The notes under the pieces are model-generated. The model saw nothing but the letters and a program-made list of their open reading frames with translations, was not told the origin of the DNA and did not search any database. Shown here in pieces: positions 25,690 to 42,276 of a stretch of 64,000 nt of DNA. Numbering within the stretch: position 1 is the first letter of the stretch; every line of letters begins with the position of its first letter. The stretch is taken from positions 61,124 to 125,123 of the forward strand of contig CAJXLV010000005.1 in assembly GCA_913056185.1 (NCBI GenBank). The letters run 5' to 3'. The DNA is from an uncultured Bacteroidota bacterium. Lineage in GTDB: Bacteria; Bacteroidota; Rhodothermia; Rhodothermales; Salinibacteraceae. A program made the translations under genes and the position numbers.

Positions 25690-26387
25690 TTGACTTCTCC
25701 CCCGGATAAATCCGGGGGATTCTTGCTCACGCGACGGGCACGAAGCGACAGCTTCTATGCCTGTACTCAGAAGTACTCATTCACAGGACCATGCGCGTTC
25801 AGCCCGAATCGTTCGATCCGGTAGGCGTCCCGCGTCTTACTGTGTCCTCCAGAGTCACTCGCCTTGTCAAAGGCTCCCGCCAGCCCAGCGGTACGAATGT
25901 TTTCGGCAGCGTTCACGTCTCGGTCGTGACTGGCCTCACAACGAGGACAGTCCCACGACCGTACCGACAGCTTCTTGCCGTGCAGCGTGAAGGCGTTCGA
26001 CGCGAAGCGAGCGGCTTCTTTGTCGCGTCTGGACTTGAAGTTGGGATATCCGCAGCGCCCGTCGAAGAAGTTCTGAAACGCTTGGTCGAGGTCCCGGAGC
26101 TTCTGTTGGAGGGCTACGCTCGATACTTCGCGGAGCCATGTCTTCTCCTTCTTGAGATCCGTCAGACGCCGAGAGGTATCGGTGTAGCTAAGACTTTCGC
26201 CTTCTTCGTAGTAGGCGTTTGTCCGAAGTTCCAGGGCCCAATTCCAGACGTACCGGGTGTGTCCGAAGACGTTGGCGAGGACCGCCTCTTGTCTTTCGGT
26301 CGGATAGAACCGATACTTGAAGCCTTTCTTTCGAGCCATATCATTCACAGCAACAAGGTTGACTTCTCCCCCGGCGAAAGCCGGGAG
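25690..26387 (-). mobile_element. Degenerate IS200/IS605-family element (tnpB only) with terminal hairpins
   Basis: 17-nt direct repeat GTTGACTTCTCCCCCGG at 25690-25706 and 26358-26374, each leading into a hairpin, bounding a tnpB-derived ORF. Confidence 0.75.
25767..26339 (-). pseudogene. tnpB: Internally deleted TnpB (IS605 OrfB)
   Basis: N-terminus KYRFYPTERQEAVLANVFGHTRYVWNWAL and C-terminus WDCPRCEASHDRDVNAAENIRTAG are joined directly after LHGKKLSV; about half the expected length, central RuvC region missing. Confidence 0.85.
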
Positions 26388-30053: not shown

Positions 30054-30875
30054 TCACCGCCGCTCTCGGCCCGCGCCGGTGGAGCCCCCCGGGGGCGGCG
30101 GCGCAGAGGACACTGGGCCCTCTTCCGGAATGTACGTTGTCTCTTCCACCGTCTTGTTGATATAGATCACGTCATACACCACGGAGTCGCTCCGCACCAC
30201 GTACACCATGTCTCGCACCCGCACAGTGTCCGGAGGGCCCATGTCTGGCGGCTCAAACCGCATCCTCGACTCGTCGTAGTTCCACATCTCGACCGTAAGC
30301 CCCTGATCGGTGCGTTCCAACAGCACGCTCAACGAATCGCCCGAGTAGTTGCGCTGCACCGCTTCCAGCAAGTCCGCCGTGATGCTGTACTGGGCCGGCT
30401 TGCGCAGCCCAGCCGCTCCGGCACGCACAGAATCTGACCGCGACGCCCCGGCCTGCGCCGTGTCGGGACGGAGCGAATCGGCCGCAATGAGCGCCCCGTC
30501 GTACTGAAACTCCGACTCCAGCCGCCAGCTGCTCATAATGTCCGCCACCCGCTCGGTGATCATGCCCGGCTGGATGTTAAACGTTTCTCCGGACGGATAC
30601 ACCACCACCAGGTCGTCTGGGCCGTATCCGTTTTCCGTCACGTCAATCACCTCGATGCGGCTCACGGAGTCGCGAGGAATGCGGGGGGTAATGATCAGTT
30701 CGTTCATCAGCCGGTTGATGGCCCCGCGCTGCGTAATCTGGGCCACTGGCCGGGTCACTTGTGTAAAGGCGGCCCCCCGCAGGCTGTCCATCGGGGCCTG
30801 TGCCCATCCCGCCAGGGGCATTAGGGCCGCCGCGGCCAGCAGCCCGGCCAAGAAACGTCGTGTGCAGTGCGTCAT
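30054..30875 (-). CDS. Secreted protein of unknown function (cluster distal gene)
   Basis: Signal peptide MTHCTRRFLAGLLAAAALMPLAGWAQ; follows the TPR lipoprotein gene by 24 nt. Confidence 0.75.
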   Translation of the reverse strand: MTHCTRRFLAGLLAAAALMPLAGWAQAPMDSLRGAAFTQVTRPVAQITQRGAINRLMNELIITPRIPRDSVSRIEVIDVTENGYGPDDLVVVYPSGETFNIQPGMITERVADIMSSWRLESEFQYDGALIAADSLRPDTAQAGASRSDSVRAGAAGLRKPAQYSITADLLEAVQRNYSGDSLSVLLERTDQGLTVEMWNYDESRMRFEPPDMGPPDTVRVRDMVYVVRSDSVVYDVIYINKTVEETTYIPEEGPVSSAPPPPGGSTGAGRERR

Positions 30876-30899
30876 GTCGGGGGCAGCGTCAATCGGTAG

Positions 30900-32414
30900 T
30901 TATCGAGCCTCGCGTCGCAGCGCCATGAATCGCTTGCGGTAGGCAACCGCCTCCTCGCGGTTCCCGAGGCGACGGTGCTGGTTGACCAGGGTGCGGTAGA
31001 GGCGCATCTTGTCCTTCGTTCCCAACTCGTCCGGGCGCTGAGCGGCGCGCTCAAGGTAGTCGATGGAGGCTTCCACATCGTTGCGCAGGAGCTGCCCGAC
31101 CTCCAACTCGGCCAGCGCCCGCTGCTTCCATGCCACCGCGGCCGACTGTTTTAAGTATTTCAGAGCGGTGCGGAGGTTCTTGCGCCGGAACCGGCGGCCC
31201 AGGTTCAGGCAGATGGTGCCGTAGGTATTCAGGTATCGCTGCGTGGTGGAATCCGCGGCGGCGCTCGCAGTCGTGTCAGGGCGCGGGGCAAGGCGCTGCA
31301 CAAGCCGCTGCAATCGGTCGGCCGCCGGCTGGCGCTCGCCCAGCTGGTACTCAGCCTGGGCCAGGCGCCAGTCAACCTCGTTGCGGGCCGACGCGGTGCG
31401 GAGCTGTGATTTGAGCGCGCGAAAGCCTTCCGCAGCAGCGGCAGCGTCGCCGCGGCCCGCCAGCTGCTGCAAGGAGTCCCGCGCAAAACTGGCGGCGATA
31501 TTCCCGTCGTCCCAGTTGATCCACTCCACCCATCCCTGCATCGACCGCCGCTGGGCGGGGGTGATGGCATACGTCTTGGCCCGGCGGTAGGCCCGAAGCG
31601 ATTGCTCCGCCTCCCGCGCGTACCGAAATGCCTCCGCCTCCGCTCGGGCGTAGTTGTACACCCGCCCGGAGTCCACCCGGACAGAGTCCAGCGCAAGCTC
31701 TACCGATTCGAGATACGTATCGAGCGCCCGGCCGTAATTGGTCGCCGCTGCGTCGTAGCGCTCAATCTGGAAATAGACGTTGGCGAGACCGAGGTACAGG
31801 CCGGGCTGATCCTTCCGGAGACGCGTAAGCTTCTGATAGATGGCAATTGCCTTCTGGTAGTCTTCCTCGCGCCCCAGCCGATTTGCCCGTCGCTGGTACA
31901 CCTGCGCCAGCAGGCTCTGCGTGCCCTGGTCGTAGGGATTGAGCTGAATGGCCTCTTCAAATGCCGTCTGTGCGTTTTTCAAGAGGTCAGCCTGCATCTG
32001 GGCCAGCTTCGCACTGTCCAGCTCTGCCGCCCGCGTCACCTTTTGGTACTTAATCAACGATTTGGCACCGCGGTTGTAGGCGCGCAGGGCCTCCGCACGT
32101 CGGTCCTGGCCTACACTGTCGGCCGCACTCGTATCGGCGGCCAGGTCGAGATATTTCCAGAGCGTATCGCTCACCTCCACCAGTGAGTCCCCCCTCTCGA
32201 CTTGCGACCGGGCCTCCTGCTGTTTCTCCAGAGACACGAACGCGTCCTGTGCCATGGAATCGGCCCTCTGAGCCGTACTGCTGTCCACCCCTGGCGGCAC
32301 ATACGCACGAAAGCTACGGGAGGAGGCGTCCGGCGTAGGGGCTGTGGTGGGCTCGCTCGTCCCACATCCCACAAGAAGCACGGCAACGGCAAGAATCGAG
32401 AGCGATCGCATCAT
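30900..32414 (-). CDS. TPR-repeat lipoprotein
   Basis: Lipobox LLVGCG; TPR-like AIQLNPYDQGTQSLLAQVYQRRANRLGREEDYQKAIAIYQKL. Confidence 0.8.
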   Translation of the reverse strand: MMRSLSILAVAVLLVGCGTSEPTTAPTPDASSRSFRAYVPPGVDSSTAQRADSMAQDAFVSLEKQQEARSQVERGDSLVEVSDTLWKYLDLAADTSAADSVGQDRRAEALRAYNRGAKSLIKYQKVTRAAELDSAKLAQMQADLLKNAQTAFEEAIQLNPYDQGTQSLLAQVYQRRANRLGREEDYQKAIAIYQKLTRLRKDQPGLYLGLANVYFQIERYDAAATNYGRALDTYLESVELALDSVRVDSGRVYNYARAEAEAFRYAREAEQSLRAYRRAKTYAITPAQRRSMQGWVEWINWDDGNIAASFARDSLQQLAGRGDAAAAAEGFRALKSQLRTASARNEVDWRLAQAEYQLGERQPAADRLQRLVQRLAPRPDTTASAAADSTTQRYLNTYGTICLNLGRRFRRKNLRTALKYLKQSAAVAWKQRALAELEVGQLLRNDVEASIDYLERAAQRPDELGTKDKMRLYRTLVNQHRRLGNREEAVAYRKRFMALRREAR

Positions 32415-32449
32415 GCAAACGGGAAAACTGAAAAGATCTGTGCACAACG

Positions 32450-33505
32450 TCACACGTCTGCCTTCGCCTCGTCCCACCACGAAAGAAAGACGCTGTAGAA
32501 CTGCTTCGACTTCTGTCCCCTCGACTGGGCGCGGGTCTGCACCCCGATGATGGTGCCGCCGCTGCGGCGAATCGGCCCGACTCGAAACTTCCGGCTCTGC
32601 TTCTGGAAGCTGCGGTCAACCAGGTACTTGGCCTCTCCGTTCTGCACAAGGACTACGTGGATCTCGCGAAGATCGGGCTTGCACATGAGGTACATTTCGT
32701 ACTCGCCCTGACTCGTTGACAGGTCGCTAATCGTGGACGATAGAAAGCTGGGCTGGTACCCCACGAGCTGATTGATGCCAGGCGGGAGGGCGGCAGGATT
32801 CTGGCGCATCCACTGAATCAGCTTGCTCGCTTCTACGCTCGTATAGTCCTCCTGGCTGGCGTCCTGAATGGTTACCGCTGCCGCGCCGTCGCCTTCTGAG
32901 TCCGCCTCCTCCGCCCCCGCCGCGAGGGGACCGCCGCTCGCAAATGCGTCCTCGCCCCCGCCCCCGGATGATCCATCTCCGGCCTCCTCCACCGCGATGC
33001 CGGCCCCGCTGCCACTGCCGCCTGAAGGCTGCGACGGGGCGTTGGGCAGGGCCGCCGCCGTGGGCGAACGGGACGATTCGGATGCATCGAGCCCGCCCAC
33101 CTGAGTCCGCTCCACCGATACCTCGCCGCCGCCGGACGAGGCCTCCACCTCGGCCTCCGACTGCGCGTCCGCGGCCGCCGTGGCCTGGGGGGTGGGCTCT
33201 TGGGTGGGAGAGTTGAGCTGCAGGTCCGGCGCCTCGATCCGCTCCGGCGTTGTCTCCGGCTCTTCCTCCTGCGGCTCTTCCGGCTCCTCCTCCGGCTGCT
33301 CCGTGGACTGCTCCGGGGGGGGATCGGGGCGCAGCTGGGTGAGCTGCGCCGGGTCGATCTCCTTAAATGTGTCGCGGGGACTCCGAAATTCCGGCACGCT
33401 CACCACGGCCATCAACACCGAGGACAGCACCACCATGCCCACTGTTGCCAGTGCGGCGACGCGGCGCCGGACAGAACTGTCATCCCGAGGAGACGGTGTA
33501 ATCAT
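32450..33505 (-). CDS. TonB/TolA-like protein: single TM, Pro/Glu-rich spacer, non-canonical C-terminal domain
   Basis: TM VAALATVGMVVLSSVLMAVV then PDPPPEQSTEQPEEEPEEPQEEEPETTPE; directly after two ExbD-like genes. Confidence 0.65.
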   Translation of the reverse strand: MITPSPRDDSSVRRRVAALATVGMVVLSSVLMAVVSVPEFRSPRDTFKEIDPAQLTQLRPDPPPEQSTEQPEEEPEEPQEEEPETTPERIEAPDLQLNSPTQEPTPQATAAADAQSEAEVEASSGGGEVSVERTQVGGLDASESSRSPTAAALPNAPSQPSGGSGSGAGIAVEEAGDGSSGGGGEDAFASGGPLAAGAEEADSEGDGAAAVTIQDASQEDYTSVEASKLIQWMRQNPAALPPGINQLVGYQPSFLSSTISDLSTSQGEYEMYLMCKPDLREIHVVLVQNGEAKYLVDRSFQKQSRKFRVGPIRRSGGTIIGVQTRAQSRGQKSKQFYSVFLSWWDEAKADV

Positions 33506-33507
33506 GG

Positions 33508-33933
33508 CTACAGCTGAAGCTCACTCTTATTGATGTTTTTGGCGATGCCCAGGCGGTCGCACACGTCCATCACGTCGACGGTGTGCTGTACGGCCGACTC
33601 GTCGCTGGGCTCAATCAGCACAATGGGGCGGCGGTCGTTGCCCTCAAGCCGGTCCTTCGTTGCACGCAGACAGTCTTCCAGGGCGGCCCGCCCGTCTGGG
33701 GCACAAATCTCTTCTGCAGGCTCCACTTGTCGCACGACGAATTGCCCCGCCTTTGCCACATCCACCCGCACGAACGTAAGCGACTGCTGCTGCGACGCCT
33801 CGCTCTGCTCTGGCGGCTTGTTGGGCATCTCGATGTGCGTGAACGAGCTGATGTCGCTGATCCAGAGAAACCCGAGCAGCAAGATGAGCCCAATGTCGAT
33901 AAACCGAATCAAAAATCCGCTGCTGCTGAGCAT
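33508..33933 (-). CDS. ExbD/TolR-like protein (copy 2)
   Basis: RFIDIGLILLLGFLWIS TM helix with ExbD-type Asp; 141 aa; next to copy 1. Confidence 0.7.
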   Translation of the reverse strand: MLSSSGFLIRFIDIGLILLLGFLWISDISSFTHIEMPNKPPEQSEASQQQSLTFVRVDVAKAGQFVVRQVEPAEEICAPDGRAALEDCLRATKDRLEGNDRRPIVLIEPSDESAVQHTVDVMDVCDRLGIAKNINKSELQL

Positions 33934-33948
33934 AGAGGGAAAGAACCG

Positions 33949-34344
33949 TTAGCGTGAGCGATTAATTTCGACCTCGATGGACTTCGGAATGCCAAGCTGT
34001 TTGCAGATCTTGGCCGCCTGCATAAGGTAGTAAATTGGGGCTGTCTGGCTGCTGCGGAGGCGCGCTTTCATCTCCGCTCGGCCGAGGGCGTCTCGCTTCT
34101 GCCGTAAGAATGTCCGGAGCTTCGCAGGGGTGCGCAGTGTTCGGCGTTCATCCTCCACGAGAAACGACCCGTCGTTTTGGATGCTCACAAAAACGATTTG
34201 GCTCGGGTCGATGTTTTTGTAGGGGGCCTCAGAACTCTCCGGGGGCTGCACGCTGCTGGGCTTGATGCTGGAGATGCAGATGAACCCGAAGAGCAGAATG
34301 AGCACGATGTCGACGAAGCGTAGCAGGTATCCGGCCTGTCCCAT
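33949..34344 (-). CDS. ExbD/TolR-like protein (copy 1)
   Basis: RFVDIVLILLFGFICISSI TM helix with Asp; 131 aa; downstream of ExbB-like gene. Confidence 0.75.
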   Translation of the reverse strand: MGQAGYLLRFVDIVLILLFGFICISSIKPSSVQPPESSEAPYKNIDPSQIVFVSIQNDGSFLVEDERRTLRTPAKLRTFLRQKRDALGRAEMKARLRSSQTAPIYYLMQAAKICKQLGIPKSIEVEINRSR

Positions 34345-34420
34345 GTCGCACGAAAGGGAAGTCTAAACAGGAAAGCGGAGAGGAACGGGGCTCCTGCCCC
34401 AGCGTCTACTGCCTCGGCGT

Positions 34421-35947
34421 CTATTGCCCCAGCGTCATGGCCTGAAACTGCACCGTCTCACTCCCGATGCTCGCTTCTACGGTGTTTAGCCCGGGCTCTG
34501 CGCCGACGGCGAAAGGCACCGCCGCCTGCCCTTCCTCGTCGGTGGTTACCTCTTGGGTTTGCGCCCCGTCGCCAAAGGTGCCCCCGCCGGAGACGACCTC
34601 AAACCGGACGGTGTGGTCGGGAACGGGATTTTTGTATTCGTCGGCCAGCGCCACGAGGAGGGGATTGGGCAGTTCCTGCCCCCCGGCCGCGCCCTGGTTG
34701 TTGCCCTGGGTGCGGTAGTGGTGGGGCGCCGCGGGGCGGGCCTGTACGCTGAGGGTGCGAGCGGCCGATGCCTCAGCGCCCGGCAGCTGGGCCTCCGCCG
34801 TGCAACGGCCCGCCGCCTCGGGCAGCGCCCAGTCAAACTGCACCGTACCGTCTTCCTCTGTCCGCAGCGTCACCTCGGCATGGCTTCCGTTGAGGGTGCC
34901 GTCGTCCGCCCCTACCCGTACCTGTACCGGCACATCAGGGACAGGCGTGCCGTCTTCTGCCGCGGCCCGGAGCTGCACCGCAGACAGCTCGGTCCCGACC
35001 ACGCCCTCCTTCGGAATGCCAACGAGCTCCAGGCGCTGGGGCGTGGGGGGGGCGGCAGTTGCCGTGGCGGAGGCTGTGGAGGCCGGGACGCCTGCGTCCG
35101 GCGCGCCCGCCGCACTGGCTTCCGCGGGCGAGGGGGCCGCCGGGGACGCCTGCCCGTCTCCGCTGCCGTCCGGGACGGAGCCCTCGGCGGCGGCGCCGTT
35201 TTTATGGGGCGACAACTCCAGAAGGCGGAAGCGCAACTCATCGCCCTCGTCCTCAATCTGATCGATGCGGCTGTCGAAGAAGCTGTAGACTTCCGTCGAG
35301 ATGAGGTTGAGGGTAATGCTCGCAATGAGTCCCAGGAGCGTCGAAATCAGCGCAACGCCCATGCCCCCAAGGATGGCCTGCTTGTCGCTGATGTTGCCAC
35401 CGTAGAAGAGCGTAAACATGCCCCATACGGTTCCGAGCAGGCCCACGGCGCCCGCCGTGTCCGCCAAGAAATCGACCCGCCGCTTAAACGTATCGAACCG
35501 CTCGCGCTGCGACTGCACAAAGTTGGCCACCTCCTCGTGCAGGGTTCCGGCGTCCTGGGTGGTGCGATACACATTCAGCAGCGTCGCGTGCATCTCCGCA
35601 AGCATGCTCTGCTGCTGGTCCTGCACCAAGTCCACGATCTCCTGCGTGCCCATCTCCGGAATGTGCGCCTCCTCCAGTGCAGCCCCCGCCCAGCGGTCCT
35701 GAAACAGCTCGTACACCTTCGCGAGGATGAGGAAGAGCCCGATCGCCAGGATGCCCAAAATGGGCCATTGGAAGCCCCCTGCCTTTCCAATAATGTTCCA
35801 CAGAACGAGCCCGCCCTCCGAGCCCGCCGCGGCCGTTGTGTCGGCGGCTTGCTGGGCATAGCTGACGCCTGCAGGGCCGCCAATCAGGAATAGAGTGACA
35901 AAAGCAATCCGAAAGCACGTATTCATTGCGCGCATGGGCCAGTTCAC
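34421..35947 (-). CDS. MotA/TolQ/ExbB proton channel protein with C-terminal Ig-like (Big_1-type) extension
   Basis: VGLLGTVWGMFTLFYGG...GGMGVALISTLLGLIASITLNLIS; then Ala/Pro linker and two Ig-like segments including LPNPLLVALADEYKNPVPDHTVRFEVVSGGGTFGDGAQTQEVTTDEEGQAAVPFAVG. GTG start or in-frame ATG downstream. Confidence 0.85.
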   Translation of the reverse strand: MNWPMRAMNTCFRIAFVTLFLIGGPAGVSYAQQAADTTAAAGSEGGLVLWNIIGKAGGFQWPILGILAIGLFLILAKVYELFQDRWAGAALEEAHIPEMGTQEIVDLVQDQQQSMLAEMHATLLNVYRTTQDAGTLHEEVANFVQSQRERFDTFKRRVDFLADTAGAVGLLGTVWGMFTLFYGGNISDKQAILGGMGVALISTLLGLIASITLNLISTEVYSFFDSRIDQIEDEGDELRFRLLELSPHKNGAAAEGSVPDGSGDGQASPAAPSPAEASAAGAPDAGVPASTASATATAAPPTPQRLELVGIPKEGVVGTELSAVQLRAAAEDGTPVPDVPVQVRVGADDGTLNGSHAEVTLRTEEDGTVQFDWALPEAAGRCTAEAQLPGAEASAARTLSVQARPAAPHHYRTQGNNQGAAGGQELPNPLLVALADEYKNPVPDHTVRFEVVSGGGTFGDGAQTQEVTTDEEGQAAVPFAVGAEPGLNTVEASIGSETVQFQAMTLGQ

Positions 35948-37767
35948 TTTTTGTTAGGAGCAGGATCGTCGTCGGTGCGGATCTCGATGGCGTCGGACGG
36001 GGCCTCCAGGACGCCGGGTTGTTGTGTCACTTCGAAGGTGATTTTCCGGACGGTTTTCTGGACGGTGAATTTTTTCTTGTTCGACCGGTAGGTGCGCCCG
36101 TTCAGGCCCTCCCATTCCAGGACGTAGGTGTATACGCCCTGGTCCAGCGGCTCGCCCTGGTCGTCGGTCCACGACCACGTCAGCTGTGCAGGCGGCACGC
36201 CGCGCCCACGGAAGAGGCGCACCGGCACACCGGCCCGGTCCTGGATGCGGACGCGCCAGAGGCCGTCTCGCCCCTTCAGGTAGGGGAAGAGGAGCGTAAA
36301 GGTGGTGCGTTCGGGGTTAAGGATGTGCAGGCGCGTTTCTCGCGGAAGGCGGAGAGAGTCGGCAGGCGCGGCGGCGGCGGTGTCCGTCGGCGCAATCACG
36401 CGAAGCTGCTCCGGAGACAAATCGGTGGTTTCGCGGAGACGGTTGTACAGCCCGTAGGTCCGGAGGCTGTCCTTTGCGCCCGCAATGAGCTGTAGCGTAT
36501 TGGGCGACTGGGCAGCGAGGCGCTGCGAGAGCCGGCCGAAGGTGGAATCGTACGTCGCCGTGAGCACATCGGGGAGCTTCACGTAATCGGGCACAGCGTC
36601 GACGGGCCGGCCGGGCGTGCGGCCACGCGTGGAAGCAAAGCTGCTGTCGAGGCGCCCCAGGCCTTGCTCTGCCAGGGCCGCCTCTACGGCCGGCGGCACG
36701 TCCACGGCACGCTCCACCCGCTTTTCCAGGTGCTGCATGGTGGGGTGCGGAGACGAGATGTACAGGCTTGGGCGCAGGCGTGGCGCGACCTCCGTTCGCT
36801 CCGCCTCCAGCATCAGTGACGGTGGCTCCGGCATCTCCGGCGGCTCCGGCGCCCGGCCAAATTCGTACACCACCCCAAACCGGTGGGAGCCAGTGGAGGC
36901 GCTGCGCAGGGACGAGGTCGGCAGGGTGTACTGATAGTTTACGCTCAGCGGCCCCCCGACATGCAATTGTCCCTCCACGCGGCCGGTGTTGAACATCGCG
37001 TCGCTCCCCACCCGCACGTATGAGCCGTCGGTCGAGTACGCCTCCACGCCCGCCCGCACGTCCAGTCCATACTCGCCGTGCGACACTTCCGCCCGCGCCC
37101 GGATGGGGCCGACGGCATAGGACGCGCCCCCAAAAATCTCCGGTTCGGCCCGGAAGGTGCCACCTCCGAGAGCGAGATTGGGCCGGTTGAGATTGCGCAC
37201 CCCCGCGGCAAGATTGAGCGCGGGCAGCGGCTTGGCAAACAGCCCAAGCGTGCCGGTAAGCGTGGTTTTGCCCGTGCCTTGCTCAAACACCGGATCGGGC
37301 TCTACCCCTACGAACTCGCTTCGGTTGTACGACAGGTTGAGGGCCGAGACCCGCGCCCCGACCGAGAACACCTGCAGGAAGCGCCCCGAGACGCTCAGCC
37401 CAAACGCGCGCTTCTTAAAAATGGGCGTGTCAAAATAACGGACGGCGCCCCCCACTCCCAGCCAATCGCCCACCAGGAATGGGGTCGAGGCCGCAAGGTA
37501 TCCCTGCCGCAGCGGCACCCCCGATGCGCTGCCCAGGCCTACGTGGTGCGCCTTGGCACCCAGCGCAATTTGTGTACGGTGAAACCCCATGGTGGCGGGA
37601 TTGCGCAGCATCGACGTTGCATCGTCGAGCGCCATGGACGGCCCCGTGATGAAGCGCTGCGCGTGGCTTATAGGCGGCAACAGCGCGCCGACCAGCAGCA
37701 GAAGAGCGCCCCAGGCCCATCCAGAATGTCTGGAAACGTCAATCATGCTGTGTATCCCGTTTCCCAT
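35944..37767 (-). CDS. PorP/SprF-like outer-membrane protein with extended C-terminal region
   Basis: Signal peptide; ITGPSMALDDATSMLRNPATMGFHRTQIALGAKAHHVGLG...; barrel-like repeats, FlgD-like WSWTDDQGEPLDQGVYTYVLEWEG near C-terminus; start overlaps upstream stop (TAATG). Confidence 0.65.
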   Translation of the reverse strand: MGNGIHSMIDVSRHSGWAWGALLLLVGALLPPISHAQRFITGPSMALDDATSMLRNPATMGFHRTQIALGAKAHHVGLGSASGVPLRQGYLAASTPFLVGDWLGVGGAVRYFDTPIFKKRAFGLSVSGRFLQVFSVGARVSALNLSYNRSEFVGVEPDPVFEQGTGKTTLTGTLGLFAKPLPALNLAAGVRNLNRPNLALGGGTFRAEPEIFGGASYAVGPIRARAEVSHGEYGLDVRAGVEAYSTDGSYVRVGSDAMFNTGRVEGQLHVGGPLSVNYQYTLPTSSLRSASTGSHRFGVVYEFGRAPEPPEMPEPPSLMLEAERTEVAPRLRPSLYISSPHPTMQHLEKRVERAVDVPPAVEAALAEQGLGRLDSSFASTRGRTPGRPVDAVPDYVKLPDVLTATYDSTFGRLSQRLAAQSPNTLQLIAGAKDSLRTYGLYNRLRETTDLSPEQLRVIAPTDTAAAAPADSLRLPRETRLHILNPERTTFTLLFPYLKGRDGLWRVRIQDRAGVPVRLFRGRGVPPAQLTWSWTDDQGEPLDQGVYTYVLEWEGLNGRTYRSNKKKFTVQKTVRKITFEVTQQPGVLEAPSDAIEIRTDDDPAPNKK

Positions 37768-40700
37768 TAGCGTGCAAGCGTGATGTGGCCGGACGAAACC
37801 GTCTCGCCCCCGTCCTCCACGACGTATAGGTACACCCCTGGGGGTTGCCCATCGCCTCCAGAATCGGTACCATTCCACCGGAGCTCTCCGGCCTGGAGCT
37901 GGTCGATGGTGCGCAGCTCTCGCCCCTCAAACGTGTAGATCCGCAGCACAGGCTGCCGCAACCCAAACTCGCTCACCTTGAACCGGACAGTGTCGTTAAT
38001 GCCGTCTCCGTTCGGGGTGAACGGATTGGGCGCTACCGACAGCTGGTCGGGGCGCTGAACGGTAAGGGTTAGCACTGCAGTGTTGTTGTCCAACCGCCCC
38101 CGCTCGTCAACCTGCTCCTCCGGATCCACTTCGCAGCGAATCTCCGTGCGGCCCTCTTGCGGAAATGCGATCGATATGGTTGGCGTCTGCGCGGCCGCCC
38201 CCACCCCCAATCCCTCCACGGTCTGGGATTCTACGGTCGTCCCTCCCCGCGAGACGCGCACCTGGAACGGGCCCGCATCGGCAGAGCCCTGGTTGGCATA
38301 GTCGCAAACAACCCCCAGCGTGTCATCGATCTGGACGTTATCGGCACTGCGCCCGACGCTCCGAAGATCTTCGGCGACCAGGTCGGGCGCCGGGGGCGGC
38401 TGGACCGTCAGCGTGCGCTCCACGACATTATTGGTCGTTCGCCCACGCTCGTCCACCTCTCCCTCTGCGTCCGCCGTACAGCGGATGGTTACCGTCCCCG
38501 CGGCCACCAGCGGAACGGTCGTCGTGTCCGTTTGCACCGTGGCCCCCACCGACAGCGAGTCCACCGTCTCCTCTTGCACCCGCGCGCCGTTGCGGGCAAT
38601 CCCCACCAAAAACGACCCCGCCCCCTCACTGCCCGCATTCGAGATCGTGCACGCCACCGCCACCGAATCCGTCACGCGCAGCGGACTCGGCACCTCCCCC
38701 ACCAAGTCCAGCGACTCCGCGACCAGGTCGGGCGCCGGGGGAGCAAGCACCTCGATCGTTCGCTCCACCCGATTGTTGTCCTCCCGTCGTTCGTCCACCT
38801 CCGCGTCCGCGTCCACAACACAGGCCAGCCGTGCGGTGCCCGGCGTCGGAAACGATACCTGGACCGCTTCCGCGCGAACCGTCGCCCCCGTCGCCAGGGA
38901 ATCGTAAGAGCGAGTCTGCACCCGATTGCCGTCCCGCAAGACGGCGAGGGAGAAGGGGCCGCTCGTGGTGTCGCCCTGGTTGGAAAACTCACACACCACC
39001 CCGCGGCGTTCGGTCGCACGTACGGTATCGTCAGGGCCGTCCACAATGTCCAGCGCCTCGGCCACGAGGTCCGCCTTCAGGGGCGCGGTGCTCCCCCGAA
39101 GCACCACCTTCGTCGTATCGGCGCCACAGTTGCCAGACGTGATTACCGCCGCGGTGTCGACATAGGCACGGTTTGGCTCCGGTGGATCGAACCGAAAGGT
39201 GGCCGTTCGCCCCCCTCGATCCGGAATGAGCGCAGGCATCTGCTCCACAGCAAACGCCGCGCCATCAAGCCCCAGCACTGTATCGACCTGCGCGTCGATA
39301 TTGCCGTCGTTCTCGAGGGTGGTTTGACGCGTTGCCGTACTGCCGGCGTAGACCTCCCCGAAGGAGAGAGTGTCCGGGATGGCGGCAATAGCCGCCTCTA
39401 CGCCGGTGCCCGACAGGTTGATGGACACGCCCTGTGTCCCCATCGCCGTTCCAGTCTCTTCGGTCAGCTCCAGCACCAAGCTGCCCCCGTAAAGGCCACG
39501 CTGTGTGGGGGCAAAGGCAATCTCAAGCGCGCGGCTCTGGTCCGGCGCCAGGGTATCGGGGACGGAGGAGACCAGCGCAAAGCCGTCGGGAACCGACAGC
39601 GCACGCACCACCAGCGGCCGATTCGTGAGATTGGTCACGGACACGGTCGCTGTGCTATCATCGCCCACGCACACTTCCCCAAATGCAACCTGCGTGCGAC
39701 TCACGATGCCAAGTCCCGGGCGTCCACCTTGGTTTCTGAGAACCTGAAGACGGCCGCCCGATTGGTCGGCCACTACGTAGTCCTGGTCCTCATCCCGGTC
39801 GAGGTCCAGTGCGGCCCCGCCCACCGGCGGAAAGGCGGTTTTCACGAGGCGATCCGGAATAAACTCGTCGTTGTCTCGGTTGCCCGCAACCTGTACCGTA
39901 TCCTGGGGGGAGTGGGTGCTAAACAGGTCCAGATCATAGGTCGATTCCTGCTCCGGGTCCACATCCGCAAGGCCGACAGTGCGGGCGGGAGACGACGGCG
40001 ATGCAATGTCCTGCCGGTCGAACGCAAACTCGCCCGTGCCCCGGTTCGCAAACCCGAGCACCCGGTCCTGGTCTTGGCCGGCAACCACCAAATCCACCCA
40101 TCCATCCCCCACCGTTCCCCCCTGCGTTCCGAACACATCCCGCGCCGCAAGCACAGCCGGCACGAAGGGCAGCGACTGGCGCCCCGCCCCGACCGAAAAC
40201 GTGCCGGCACCCTCATTCTTGAGCCAAAGGATCGCCTCCTCCGCAGCACTCGTCACGAGCAGATCCAGGTCTCCATCCCGGTCCACGTCCCGCGCAACAA
40301 CACTGGTGAGCGCCGCGCTTCCGACGGTCGGCTGCCCCTCGGAAAACCCACCAGTGCCGTCGTTCACGTGCACCACACTTCCGCTTCCACCAAACGGCGT
40401 GACGACAAGGTCCGGGGCTCCGTCCCCAGTTACATCTGCAATCTCTACGTCCGTGGGCCGTGATCCTGTCGGCACCCGAGAGATGCTCCACCCGCTCGGC
40501 TCGTTCAGAAGGATGCCGAGGGAATCTTGAAAGCTGTGTACCGTCACAAGATCGGGCCGCCCATCGCCGTTCACATCCCCCTGCGCAAGGGTGACCGCCC
40601 CCGGCATGGAAATCAACGACGCGTTGGAGAGCGTACTTCCATATCGCACCTGCACAGTGTCACTGGGTTGATGCACGACCGCGACATCGGCCCGTTGGTC

Positions 40701-41252
40701 CTCATTGAAGTCTGCCGACACCACCGCCGACGGGATGGACACGCCTCCCACCTTCACAGGCGGTGCCTCCGCCTCGGCCCCTGCTCTTGCCAGCGCCTGC
40801 GGCCTCTGCACGGGCGGCTCCGGCTCGAAGATGCCGGTTCCGTACTCGGTACGAACCGTGAACTGCCACACGTACGGCGCCCCGATCGGCGTGCCCCCCA
40901 CCTGCAGGTCCTCGGAAAGCACCACCGTCACCTGCTCTCCCGGGCGAAAAGGCTCATCGGGCACGTACAAAAGCGTGTCCCCCGTCGGCCGCCCCGTCCC
41001 TGAGATGCGTCCGGAACGGCTGCCGTACACGTCAACCAGGTCTTGCCCGGGCGGGATCTCCACCGCCCCCGCGAACTCGACCCGCACAGAGTCGGTCGGC
41101 TCCGCCACGACCGACCCCTGAGCCGGCGCGACGGCCTGGACCTCACCCGTCTGCGCGTGGGCCTGGGACAACGCCACCGCGCCCCACAGCCCACAGAAAA
41201 GAAGGAGCACGAGCCACCACCGGCCCGTCGCGCTCAGAGCGCTTGCCATCAT
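37767..41252 (-). CDS. Large secreted protein with FG-GAP/VCBS-like repeats, CARDB-like repeats and a T9SS type-B/FlgD-like C-terminal domain
   Basis: DFNEDQRADVAVV, GDVNGDGRPDLVTV repeats; three PDLVAE.. units; C-terminus VAPNPFTPNGDGINDTVRFKV...GVYLYVVEDGGETVSSGHITLAR. Confidence 0.85.
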   Translation of the reverse strand: MMASALSATGRWWLVLLLFCGLWGAVALSQAHAQTGEVQAVAPAQGSVVAEPTDSVRVEFAGAVEIPPGQDLVDVYGSRSGRISGTGRPTGDTLLYVPDEPFRPGEQVTVVLSEDLQVGGTPIGAPYVWQFTVRTEYGTGIFEPEPPVQRPQALARAGAEAEAPPVKVGGVSIPSAVVSADFNEDQRADVAVVHQPSDTVQVRYGSTLSNASLISMPGAVTLAQGDVNGDGRPDLVTVHSFQDSLGILLNEPSGWSISRVPTGSRPTDVEIADVTGDGAPDLVVTPFGGSGSVVHVNDGTGGFSEGQPTVGSAALTSVVARDVDRDGDLDLLVTSAAEEAILWLKNEGAGTFSVGAGRQSLPFVPAVLAARDVFGTQGGTVGDGWVDLVVAGQDQDRVLGFANRGTGEFAFDRQDIASPSSPARTVGLADVDPEQESTYDLDLFSTHSPQDTVQVAGNRDNDEFIPDRLVKTAFPPVGGAALDLDRDEDQDYVVADQSGGRLQVLRNQGGRPGLGIVSRTQVAFGEVCVGDDSTATVSVTNLTNRPLVVRALSVPDGFALVSSVPDTLAPDQSRALEIAFAPTQRGLYGGSLVLELTEETGTAMGTQGVSINLSGTGVEAAIAAIPDTLSFGEVYAGSTATRQTTLENDGNIDAQVDTVLGLDGAAFAVEQMPALIPDRGGRTATFRFDPPEPNRAYVDTAAVITSGNCGADTTKVVLRGSTAPLKADLVAEALDIVDGPDDTVRATERRGVVCEFSNQGDTTSGPFSLAVLRDGNRVQTRSYDSLATGATVRAEAVQVSFPTPGTARLACVVDADAEVDERREDNNRVERTIEVLAPPAPDLVAESLDLVGEVPSPLRVTDSVAVACTISNAGSEGAGSFLVGIARNGARVQEETVDSLSVGATVQTDTTTVPLVAAGTVTIRCTADAEGEVDERGRTTNNVVERTLTVQPPPAPDLVAEDLRSVGRSADNVQIDDTLGVVCDYANQGSADAGPFQVRVSRGGTTVESQTVEGLGVGAAAQTPTISIAFPQEGRTEIRCEVDPEEQVDERGRLDNNTAVLTLTVQRPDQLSVAPNPFTPNGDGINDTVRFKVSEFGLRQPVLRIYTFEGRELRTIDQLQAGELRWNGTDSGGDGQPPGVYLYVVEDGGETVSSGHITLAR

Positions 41253-41253
41253 G

Positions 41254-42276
41254 CTATTCGTCCTCATCGGTTCGTACACGCTGTAGGCGAGTCCGGAGCT
41301 CGTTCACGGCGGCCTCATCGCCGAGTCGTTCGTACGCAATCACCAGCCGCTGCAGGGCCTGCAGGTCGTCGGGGCGCCGCTGCAAGACGCGACGGTAGGT
41401 CTGTGCCGCCGCCTCTGCGCGTCCCAGCGCTCCGTAGGCCTCTCCCAGTGCCCGAAGCACCTTCACGGAGGTCTCTCCACCGGCCAGCCGCTCCAGCAGG
41501 GGCAGGGCTTGCCCGTACTTCTCACGGTTGAACAGCAGAAACGCATAGTCACGGCGCACCGTGGACGACGGTGCGGTCTGGAGCAGCTTGTCAAACGCCC
41601 CGAGCGCCTCGGGCCACTGCTCGGTCTCCACAAACGCATACGCCAGTCGCTTACGAATCCGGGGCTGGGGCGACGACTGCTCCAGGGCACGCCGACCGTA
41701 CCGAATGGCTGCAGAGTAGTCGTCGGCCTCCGCCGCCAAGGCCGAAAGGTTGTTGAGGAGCTCAATGTCCTCGGGCGCCATCTCCAGCGCCTCGCGGTAG
41801 GCGGCCCGCGCCTCCTCGGGGCGCCCCGCCTCCACCCGCACCTGCCCCAGGGCTTTCACCGGTGCCACATTGTCCGGTTGGATCACCCGCACGGCCTGAA
41901 AAGCCGCCTCCGCCGCTCCATACGCGCTGCTCTCCAGCGCCTTCGTCCCCGTCGCAAACTCCTCGCGGGCGTGCTTCTGCTTCACATACCGGATTTGCTC
42001 GGCAAATCGTGGAGACTGTGCCCGAGAAGCGTCGAGAGCAGAGATGCCCTTCTTGTACGCGCCCTCGCGCATGTACAACCGCCCGAGTAGAAAATGGGCT
42101 TCTGCATTTTCCGGCTCGCTACGCGTGGTCTGCACGAGCAACTGCTTCGCGGCTGCCGTATCGTTCATCCGCTCGTAATTGCTGATGCGGCGGGCAAGAT
42201 CGCTCTCACACCCCCCAAGCACCACCATCACGGCCAGGAGCAAAGGCAACCGATACGGTAACGCAGAAGGAAGCAC
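41254..42276 (-). CDS. TPR-repeat lipoprotein
   Basis: Lipobox MVVLGGCESD; multiple TPR units (AEAHFLLGRLYMREGAYKKGISALD; PRIRKRLAYAFVETEQWPEALGAFDKL); GTG start. Confidence 0.88.
   Translation of the reverse strand: MLPSALPYRLPLLLAVMVVLGGCESDLARRISNYERMNDTAAAKQLLVQTTRSEPENAEAHFLLGRLYMREGAYKKGISALDASRAQSPRFAEQIRYVKQKHAREEFATGTKALESSAYGAAEAAFQAVRVIQPDNVAPVKALGQVRVEAGRPEEARAAYREALEMAPEDIELLNNLSALAAEADDYSAAIRYGRRALEQSSPQPRIRKRLAYAFVETEQWPEALGAFDKLLQTAPSSTVRRDYAFLLFNREKYGQALPLLERLAGGETSVKVLRALGEAYGALGRAEAAAQTYRRVLQRRPDDLQALQRLVIAYERLGDEAAVNELRTRLQRVRTDEDE

Follow-up and report, generated by a model that had tools for sequence, protein, structure and literature searches.

A putative proton-driven envelope machine: a PorP/SprF-like barrel and a type IX surface protein clustered with a dedicated ExbB/ExbD motor

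The gene cluster

The 64,000-nt window considered here (the whole stretch of DNA that was analysed) is part of a 3.27 Mb draft genome of a Salinibacter-type bacterium and carries a cluster of nine genes that may encode a trans-envelope machine. Their open reading frames (ORFs) all lie on the minus strand and fill positions 30054-42276, with neighbours overlapping or separated by short gaps. In this order, the genes specify a tetratricopeptide repeat (TPR) lipoprotein, a secreted surface protein with a C-terminal sorting domain (CTD) of the type IX secretion system (T9SS), an outer-membrane barrel resembling PorP/SprF, an ExbB-like channel, two ExbD paralogues, a putative TonB/TolA-like transducer, a second TPR lipoprotein, and a secreted periplasmic protein (genes 1 to 9, Table 1). 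Genes 1 and 8 each combine TPR with a lipobox-like Cys.

The original prediction for this locus had named nine co-directional minus-strand genes and assigned domains to them. All nine were found there, and the domains were borne out overall by Pfam and NCBIfam, with nothing specific for genes 7 and 9. The pairing of a PorP/SprF-like barrel with a T9SS-type CTD protein was recovered by profiles and a structure model, and the dedicated ExbB/ExbD motor and TonB-like transducer sharing the cluster with this SprF-like module by profiles. The length of gene 2 has to be revised from 1162 to 1170 amino acids (aa), counted from the first possible start. Comparison with relatives places the likely start of gene 3 near Met45 (37746) and that of gene 8 near Met23 (32414); with these later starts, the apparent overlaps of both genes vanish.

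Table 1. Genes and domains of the cluster, with positions in the window
Feature	Position	Strand	Basis
Gene 1, TPR lipoprotein (lipobox LGGC), 340 aa	41254..42276	-	TPR profile; first in order among relatives
Gene 2, secreted surface protein, up to 1170 aa	37767..41279	-	FG-GAP, choice-of-anchor-D, CARDB, C-terminal type IX sorting domain
Gene 2, type-B-like T9SS CTD, residues 1083-1166	37782..38033	-	PF13585, TIGR04131
Gene 3, PorP/SprF-like outer-membrane barrel with periplasmic extension; start likely near 37746	35944..37878	-	Profiles, model
Gene 3, 14-strand barrel, residues 89-340	36859..37614	-	AlphaFold2 model, Foldseek
Gene 3, extension: OmpA-like stretch, then FlgD/CTD-like immunoglobulin (Ig) domain, residues 380-618	36025..36741	-	Model, profiles
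Gene 4, ExbB-like channel with C-terminal Ig-like tail, 508 aa	34421..35947	-	PF01618, Big_1
Gene 4, Ig-like tail, about residues 300-504, predicted cytoplasmic	34436..35050	-	Big_1; Balneolales frames
Gene 5, ExbD paralogue 1, Asp12 in transmembrane (TM) helix	33949..34344	-	PF02472
Gene 6, ExbD paralogue 2, Asp in TM helix	33508..33933	-	PF02472
Gene 7, TonB/TolA-like transducer by architecture only	32450..33505	-	One TM helix, Pro/Glu-rich linker, own-family C-terminal domain
Gene 7, C-terminal domain, residues 226-348	32462..32830	-	Structure model
Gene 8, TPR lipoprotein; start likely near 32414	30900..32480	-	TPR profile; Cys39 invariant
Gene 9, secreted periplasmic protein	30054..30875	-	Family mostly adjoins this motor in loci examined

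The surface module

Gene 2 carries a signal peptide together with FG-GAP, CARDB, and choice-of-anchor-D domains and a CHU_C type IX sorting domain. The CHU_C match (PF13585) reaches 33.1 bits, above the cut-off of 27, and TIGR04131 is matched with 29 bits, below the cut-off of 35; the latter profile is also matched by every gene 2 relative tested, in one case above the curated cut-off and in the others below. The T9SS CTD is the part of gene 2 that is kept in all relatives, and in the f20 Balneolales the protein measures ~158 aa and consists of signal peptide and CTD only. Since all gene 2 proteins tested match the type-B domain and some match little else, the CTD is regarded as the constant partner of the barrel, and the minimal form argues against a large adhesin as an essential part. 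Type-B CTD proteins are described to bind, and to require, cognate PorP/SprF-like barrels (PMC9143113, PMC12618676).

The window's gene 3 matches TIGR03519 weakly (E 2.3e-5, below cut-off). This profile is matched by all 18 of its relatives (best 1.7e-11), and PF11751 by 16 of the 18 (best 2.3e-8). The PorP assignment is based on NCBIfam and on these relatives; a PF11751 search of the own genome matched nothing, controls included. An AlphaFold2 model displays 14 strands, an OmpA-like beta-alpha-beta-alpha-beta run, and a FlgD/CTD-like Ig domain; its mean predicted local distance difference test (pLDDT) score is 65, and the broad layout alone is trusted. The best Foldseek matches are FadL barrels, with the T9SS translocon chains 8gl6_F and 6h3i_F in the top twenty (E 1e-8 to 8e-8 for the barrel against FadL and 8gl6_F). 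The extension yields profile matches to FlgD and to the PorU CTD, FlgD_ig being found in 7 of the 18 relatives, and its other stretch may be OmpA-like, judging from the model. Together, profiles and model describe gene 3 as a 14-strand barrel of PorP/SprF type that continues into a periplasmic extension. A structure check had been named beforehand as a possible refutation of the original prediction; the 14-strand model and the Foldseek matches favour the PorP-like barrel.

The motor and its transducer

Gene 4 consists of a MotA/TolQ/ExbB domain (PF01618, 3.8e-14) followed by Big_1-like Ig domains (Big_1, 9e-10), and genes 5 and 6 both match ExbD (PF02472; 5.8e-9 and 6.4e-10, respectively). The best NCBIfam matches of the three proteins are TolQ/TolR-like. 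Thr173 and Thr203 of ExbB and Asp12 of ExbD are invariant among the cluster proteins and the aligned other motors of the host, and the view that gene 4 together with genes 5 and 6 carries the channel residues of a 5:2-type ion motor is supported by sequence. Probably, an ExbB pentamer surrounds an ExbD pair, here a heterodimer of gene 5 and gene 6.

The ExbB frame stops right behind a conserved tract of 10-11 A at seven loci of f20 Balneolales, and the Ig tail continues from this tract in a different frame (L031:5093, L032:5705, L033:5337, L034:4553, L035:3001, L036:7073, and L038:10683). No other run of at least 10 A or T is present in the 86 kb that these loci span. The out-of-frame tail mostly has no nearby start codon. 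It also lacks a signal peptide of its own, and the arrangement therefore fits a cytoplasmic Ig tail. The simplest reading suggests that the tract serves programmed slippage, so that ExbB is made in a tailed and a tail-less form; less simple accounts would be phase variation or a shared assembly error.

Gene 7 shows the layout of a transducer, with one TM helix, a linker rich in Pro and Glu, and a C-terminal domain of its own family. This domain is modelled (pLDDT mostly >90) as two helices, six strands, and a helix with an invariant WW. A fold search against the PDB returned noise only (best E 0.066), with the disordered linker dominating the model. Profile searches detected no TonB_C or TolA C-terminal domain in gene 7, and the aligned members contain no TM-helix His/SHLS motif, which is the motor-binding site of transducers (PMC12204202). 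With both the TonB/TolA domain and the His motif missing, gene 7 belongs to neither Ton nor Tol. The TM His is the diagnostic applied here and not the TM3 glutamate of ExbB; absence of the latter was dropped as a diagnostic, since this glutamate is also missing from another ExbB of the host.

Conservation and distribution

When 60 genomes were searched with gene 3, strong relatives turned up in 8 besides that of the window. The surrounding regions match the cluster in gene content and gene order up to the ends of their contigs, and identities to the cluster proteins are mostly 28-60%. A scan of a genome collection with the ExbB alignment added Balneolales genomes and one KSB1 genome, all with the nine genes ordered alike. 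The complete order is found in Salinibacter altiplanensis (with AN15, at least one named strain carries the whole cluster), other Rhodothermales, Balneolales, and the candidate phylum KSB1. In the last, loci L116, L117, L118, L123, and L124 contain all nine genes in this order, and gene 1 of L121 is partial at a contig edge. Synteny across relatives had also been named beforehand as a refutation test, and the preserved order speaks for the prediction. Its description of the system as specific to this lineage is too narrow, given the clusters in Balneolales and KSB1 and the presence in only 3 of the 13 genomes of the window's own genus. Chance co-location or an unrelated operon is ruled out, because the nine-gene order recurs across deeply separated lineages.

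Gene 9 is present in 37 of 252 genomes of the class, and its profile is positive in 31 of 82 KSB1 genomes; among 398 genomes drawn evenly from the phylum, gene 9 was matched 15 times, each time within this class. One genome (G205) holds five copies of gene 9. A tree of genes 8 and 9 follows taxonomy, with Balneolales (support 0.99), KSB1 (0.99), and a variant in Rhodothermales families f14 and f15 (1.0) as groups and Rhodothermales basal. Despite flanking genes that differ between the window and its congeners, the distribution fits old descent with many losses. Recent horizontal transfer is not claimed: the flanks differ, yet the guanine-cytosine content is unremarkable and the tree is congruent with the taxa.

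Exchange of the surface module

Six of the genes (ExbB, two ExbDs, the TonB-like transducer, the TPR lipoprotein, and gene 9) constitute a core that is found in other company, too. In families f14 and f15 (L081-L090), gene 9 homologues are accompanied by ExbB, two ExbDs, and homologues of genes 7 and 8 (127 and 247 bits, respectively, at L081), whereas the place of genes 1-3 is taken by DUF4402 proteins, one protein of 255 residues, and one of 750-820 residues. The last two matched no informative Pfam or NCBIfam family and no solved structure. From their size and neighbourhood, they are possibly chaperone- and usher-like, a reading on which Pfam, NCBIfam, and the PDB offer nothing beyond DUF4402. 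In KSB1, loci L131-L135 show a rearranged order (barrel, ExbB, CTD proteins, ExbDs, genes 7-9), in which proteins of 320 and 820 aa, ending in FlgD/CTD-like domains, lie between ExbB and the ExbDs. At the KSB1 loci L128 and L130, the genes ahead of the motor core encode an NtrC-type regulator, coiled-coil proteins, a barrel-like protein of 352 aa, and two lipoproteins of ~300 aa, possibly a third surface module.

On account of these f14/f15 and KSB1 variants, genes 4-9 are regarded as constant and the surface module (genes 1-3) as variable. Tentatively, genes 4-9 might then represent an unrecognised class of proton-driven engine spanning the envelope, with its own gene 7 fold and periplasmic gene 9 factor, that powers the export or assembly of outer-membrane surface proteins and accepts exchangeable front ends (PorP/type-B CTD or chaperone/usher-like DUF4402). 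This wider proposal is considered possible, somewhat short of probable.

The T9SS and other motors of the host

SprA is encoded in 250 of the 252 genomes of the class, including that of the window (G000), and in all 82 KSB1 genomes. The host harbors, on contig C8 of G000 at about 68.6-71.7 kb (L136:755-3892), divergent GldK (2.9e-55) and GldM (1.2e-10) with a GldL-like two-TM protein and a GldN-like gene. This locus was found by hand, with scores mostly below curated cut-offs; the GldL model TIGR03513, which misses it, gave no match in 20 genomes or in any control. Two further loci of Tol/Ton type, on contigs C21 and C23, contain TolQ/R- and ExbB/ExbD-type genes. GldL/GldM proteins are not among the cluster genes, where the motor genes are ExbB/ExbD. 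As GldK-GldM and SprA are encoded separately, the cluster motor adds to the T9SS motor and does not replace it, at least in the window's genome.

Apart from these systems, a short ORF resembling a decayed IS200/IS605 TnpB was noticed by eye at positions 25767-26348 of the window, ~4 kb from the cluster.

Proposed mechanism and alternative explanations

It is considered moderately probable that the nine genes form a single machine, spanning the envelope and driven by protons, for assembling, anchoring, or moving a type-B surface protein. Function is inferred here from composition, gene order, conservation, residue signatures, and co-occurrence with SprA. In the proposed sequence of events, SprA would export gene 2, and the gene 3 barrel would take over its CTD, holding gene 2 at the surface. 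The ion motor (genes 4-6) would move gene 7, whose C-terminal domain would pull or turn the periplasmic OmpA/Ig extension of the barrel, with lipoproteins 1 and 8 and gene 9 as intermediaries. The surface protein might thereby be assembled, released, anchored, or moved, with genes 4-9 acting as the engine and genes 1-3 as an exchangeable surface module. That gene 2 can be so small is easier to square with assembly or anchoring, or with other surface proteins being used, than with one large adhesin being dragged.

Several observations weigh against this machine. The missing TM His/SHLS motif bears on the coupling of gene 7 to the motor. Gene 7 has no relative in Pfam, NCBIfam, or PDB profile searches, and no credible relative of gene 9 was found in these three databases. 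Moreover, two KSB1 loci separate the modules: L122 contains genes 1-3 and 7-9 without an adjacent motor, and L125 has genes 1-3 and 9 in another arrangement, with two gene 9 copies and no adjacent ExbB/ExbD.

The alternative that survives best, albeit rather unlikely, is a gliding or adhesin-movement machine, in which the motor drags the barrel-held gene 2 along the surface as GldLM does for SprB/SprF. An SprB/SprF-type pair does stand alongside a proton motor, and the FG-GAP, CARDB, and choice-of-anchor repeats of gene 2 suit an adhesin; the f20 proteins of signal peptide and CTD show, however, that the large adhesin is not the conserved element, and the patchy distribution also speaks against gliding. 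A smaller chance is given to a reading of the cluster as a diverged branch of the Agl-Glt/Nfs core complex known from Myxococcus and Gammaproteobacteria, which has a like parts list in one region, with one ExbB, two ExbDs, the TonB-like GltG, and the TPR proteins GltC and GltE (PMC3169522). The resemblance of gene 1 to GltE amounts to generic TPR similarity in NCBIfam, however, and neither a PorP barrel nor a type-B CTD protein is among the published core genes.

A Tol-like machine that attaches or clears the outer membrane, with gene 2 as a passenger, is quite improbable. The TolQ/TolR-like best matches of genes 4-6, the TPR lipoproteins, and the OmpA-like stretch of gene 3 are in keeping with it, but TolB and Pal are absent from the cluster, gene 7 has neither the TolA domain nor the His motif, and the host has other TolQ/R-type genes. 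In addition, the cluster is missing from most relatives, including 10 of the 13 own-genus genomes, and is therefore not essential. A Ton-like importer, whose motor would open the barrel for uptake, is very improbable, since despite the order ExbB-ExbD-ExbD-transducer and a barrel fold that also matches FadL-type importers, there is no TonB-dependent receptor or plug, the gene 7 C-terminal domain is not that of TonB, and it is a secreted CTD protein that constantly accompanies the barrel.

Comparison with known systems

No published description of the cluster was found in the open-access literature. The T9SS literature links PorP/SprF-held surface proteins to GldLM, and ExbB/ExbD motors are linked to Ton, Tol, and Agl-Glt. 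The type-B CTD/PorP-SprF shuttle of the T9SS (SprB/SprF, PG1035/PorP) resembles the cluster in that a 14-strand barrel of the PorP family adjoins a type-B CTD protein in SprA-bearing genomes, and the tested parts of its definition were all found here. The cluster differs in the 300-residue periplasmic extension of its barrel and in having its own ExbB/ExbD motor, a transducer, and two TPR lipoproteins. GldL/GldM (PorL/PorM) is likewise a proton motor of T9SS-bearing organisms with a presumed action on PorP/SprF-held proteins, whereas the cluster uses a three-TM ExbB, two ExbDs, and a transducer, and the GldK/GldM of the host are encoded elsewhere.

Ton (ExbB-ExbD-TonB) and Tol-Pal (TolQRA-B-Pal) belong to the same motor superfamily and have transducers of the same layout, with TM helix, Pro-rich linker, and C-terminal domain. 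ExbB/ExbD genes are present in the cluster (PF01618, PF02472, channel Thr/Asp), but its sole barrel is of PorP type and not a receptor, gene 7 differs from TonB and TolA in C-terminal domain and SHLS/His, and Pfam and NCBIfam revealed no TolA C-terminal domain, TolB, or Pal among the nine genes. Force transducers with a vWA domain adjoin a TolQ-like gene, a TolR-like pair, and a TPR gene, and this family is also found in Rhodothermota (PMC12204202). The C-terminal domain of gene 7 is small and alpha+beta instead of vWA, and no PorP/CTD partner is described for the vWA transducers (PMC12204202).

If the proposed machine is real, it would be a new proton-powered outer-membrane system with two uncharacterised families, spread over two or more phylum-level lineages and additional to GldKLM. 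Direct powering of surface-protein assembly by ion motors would become testable, and a core with interchangeable surface modules provides a natural comparison for finding the target of the motor. The closest parallel in function is offered by the Agl-Glt core complex (AglRQS with GltC, D, E, and G), whose genes are clustered and patchily spread over distant phyla (PMC3169522). The two are alike in gene content, with one ExbB, two distinct ExbDs, a TonB-like TM protein, and TPR proteins; no specific sequence link between them was found, and the present cluster has two parts beyond this common set, a barrel of PorP type and a CTD protein of type IX.

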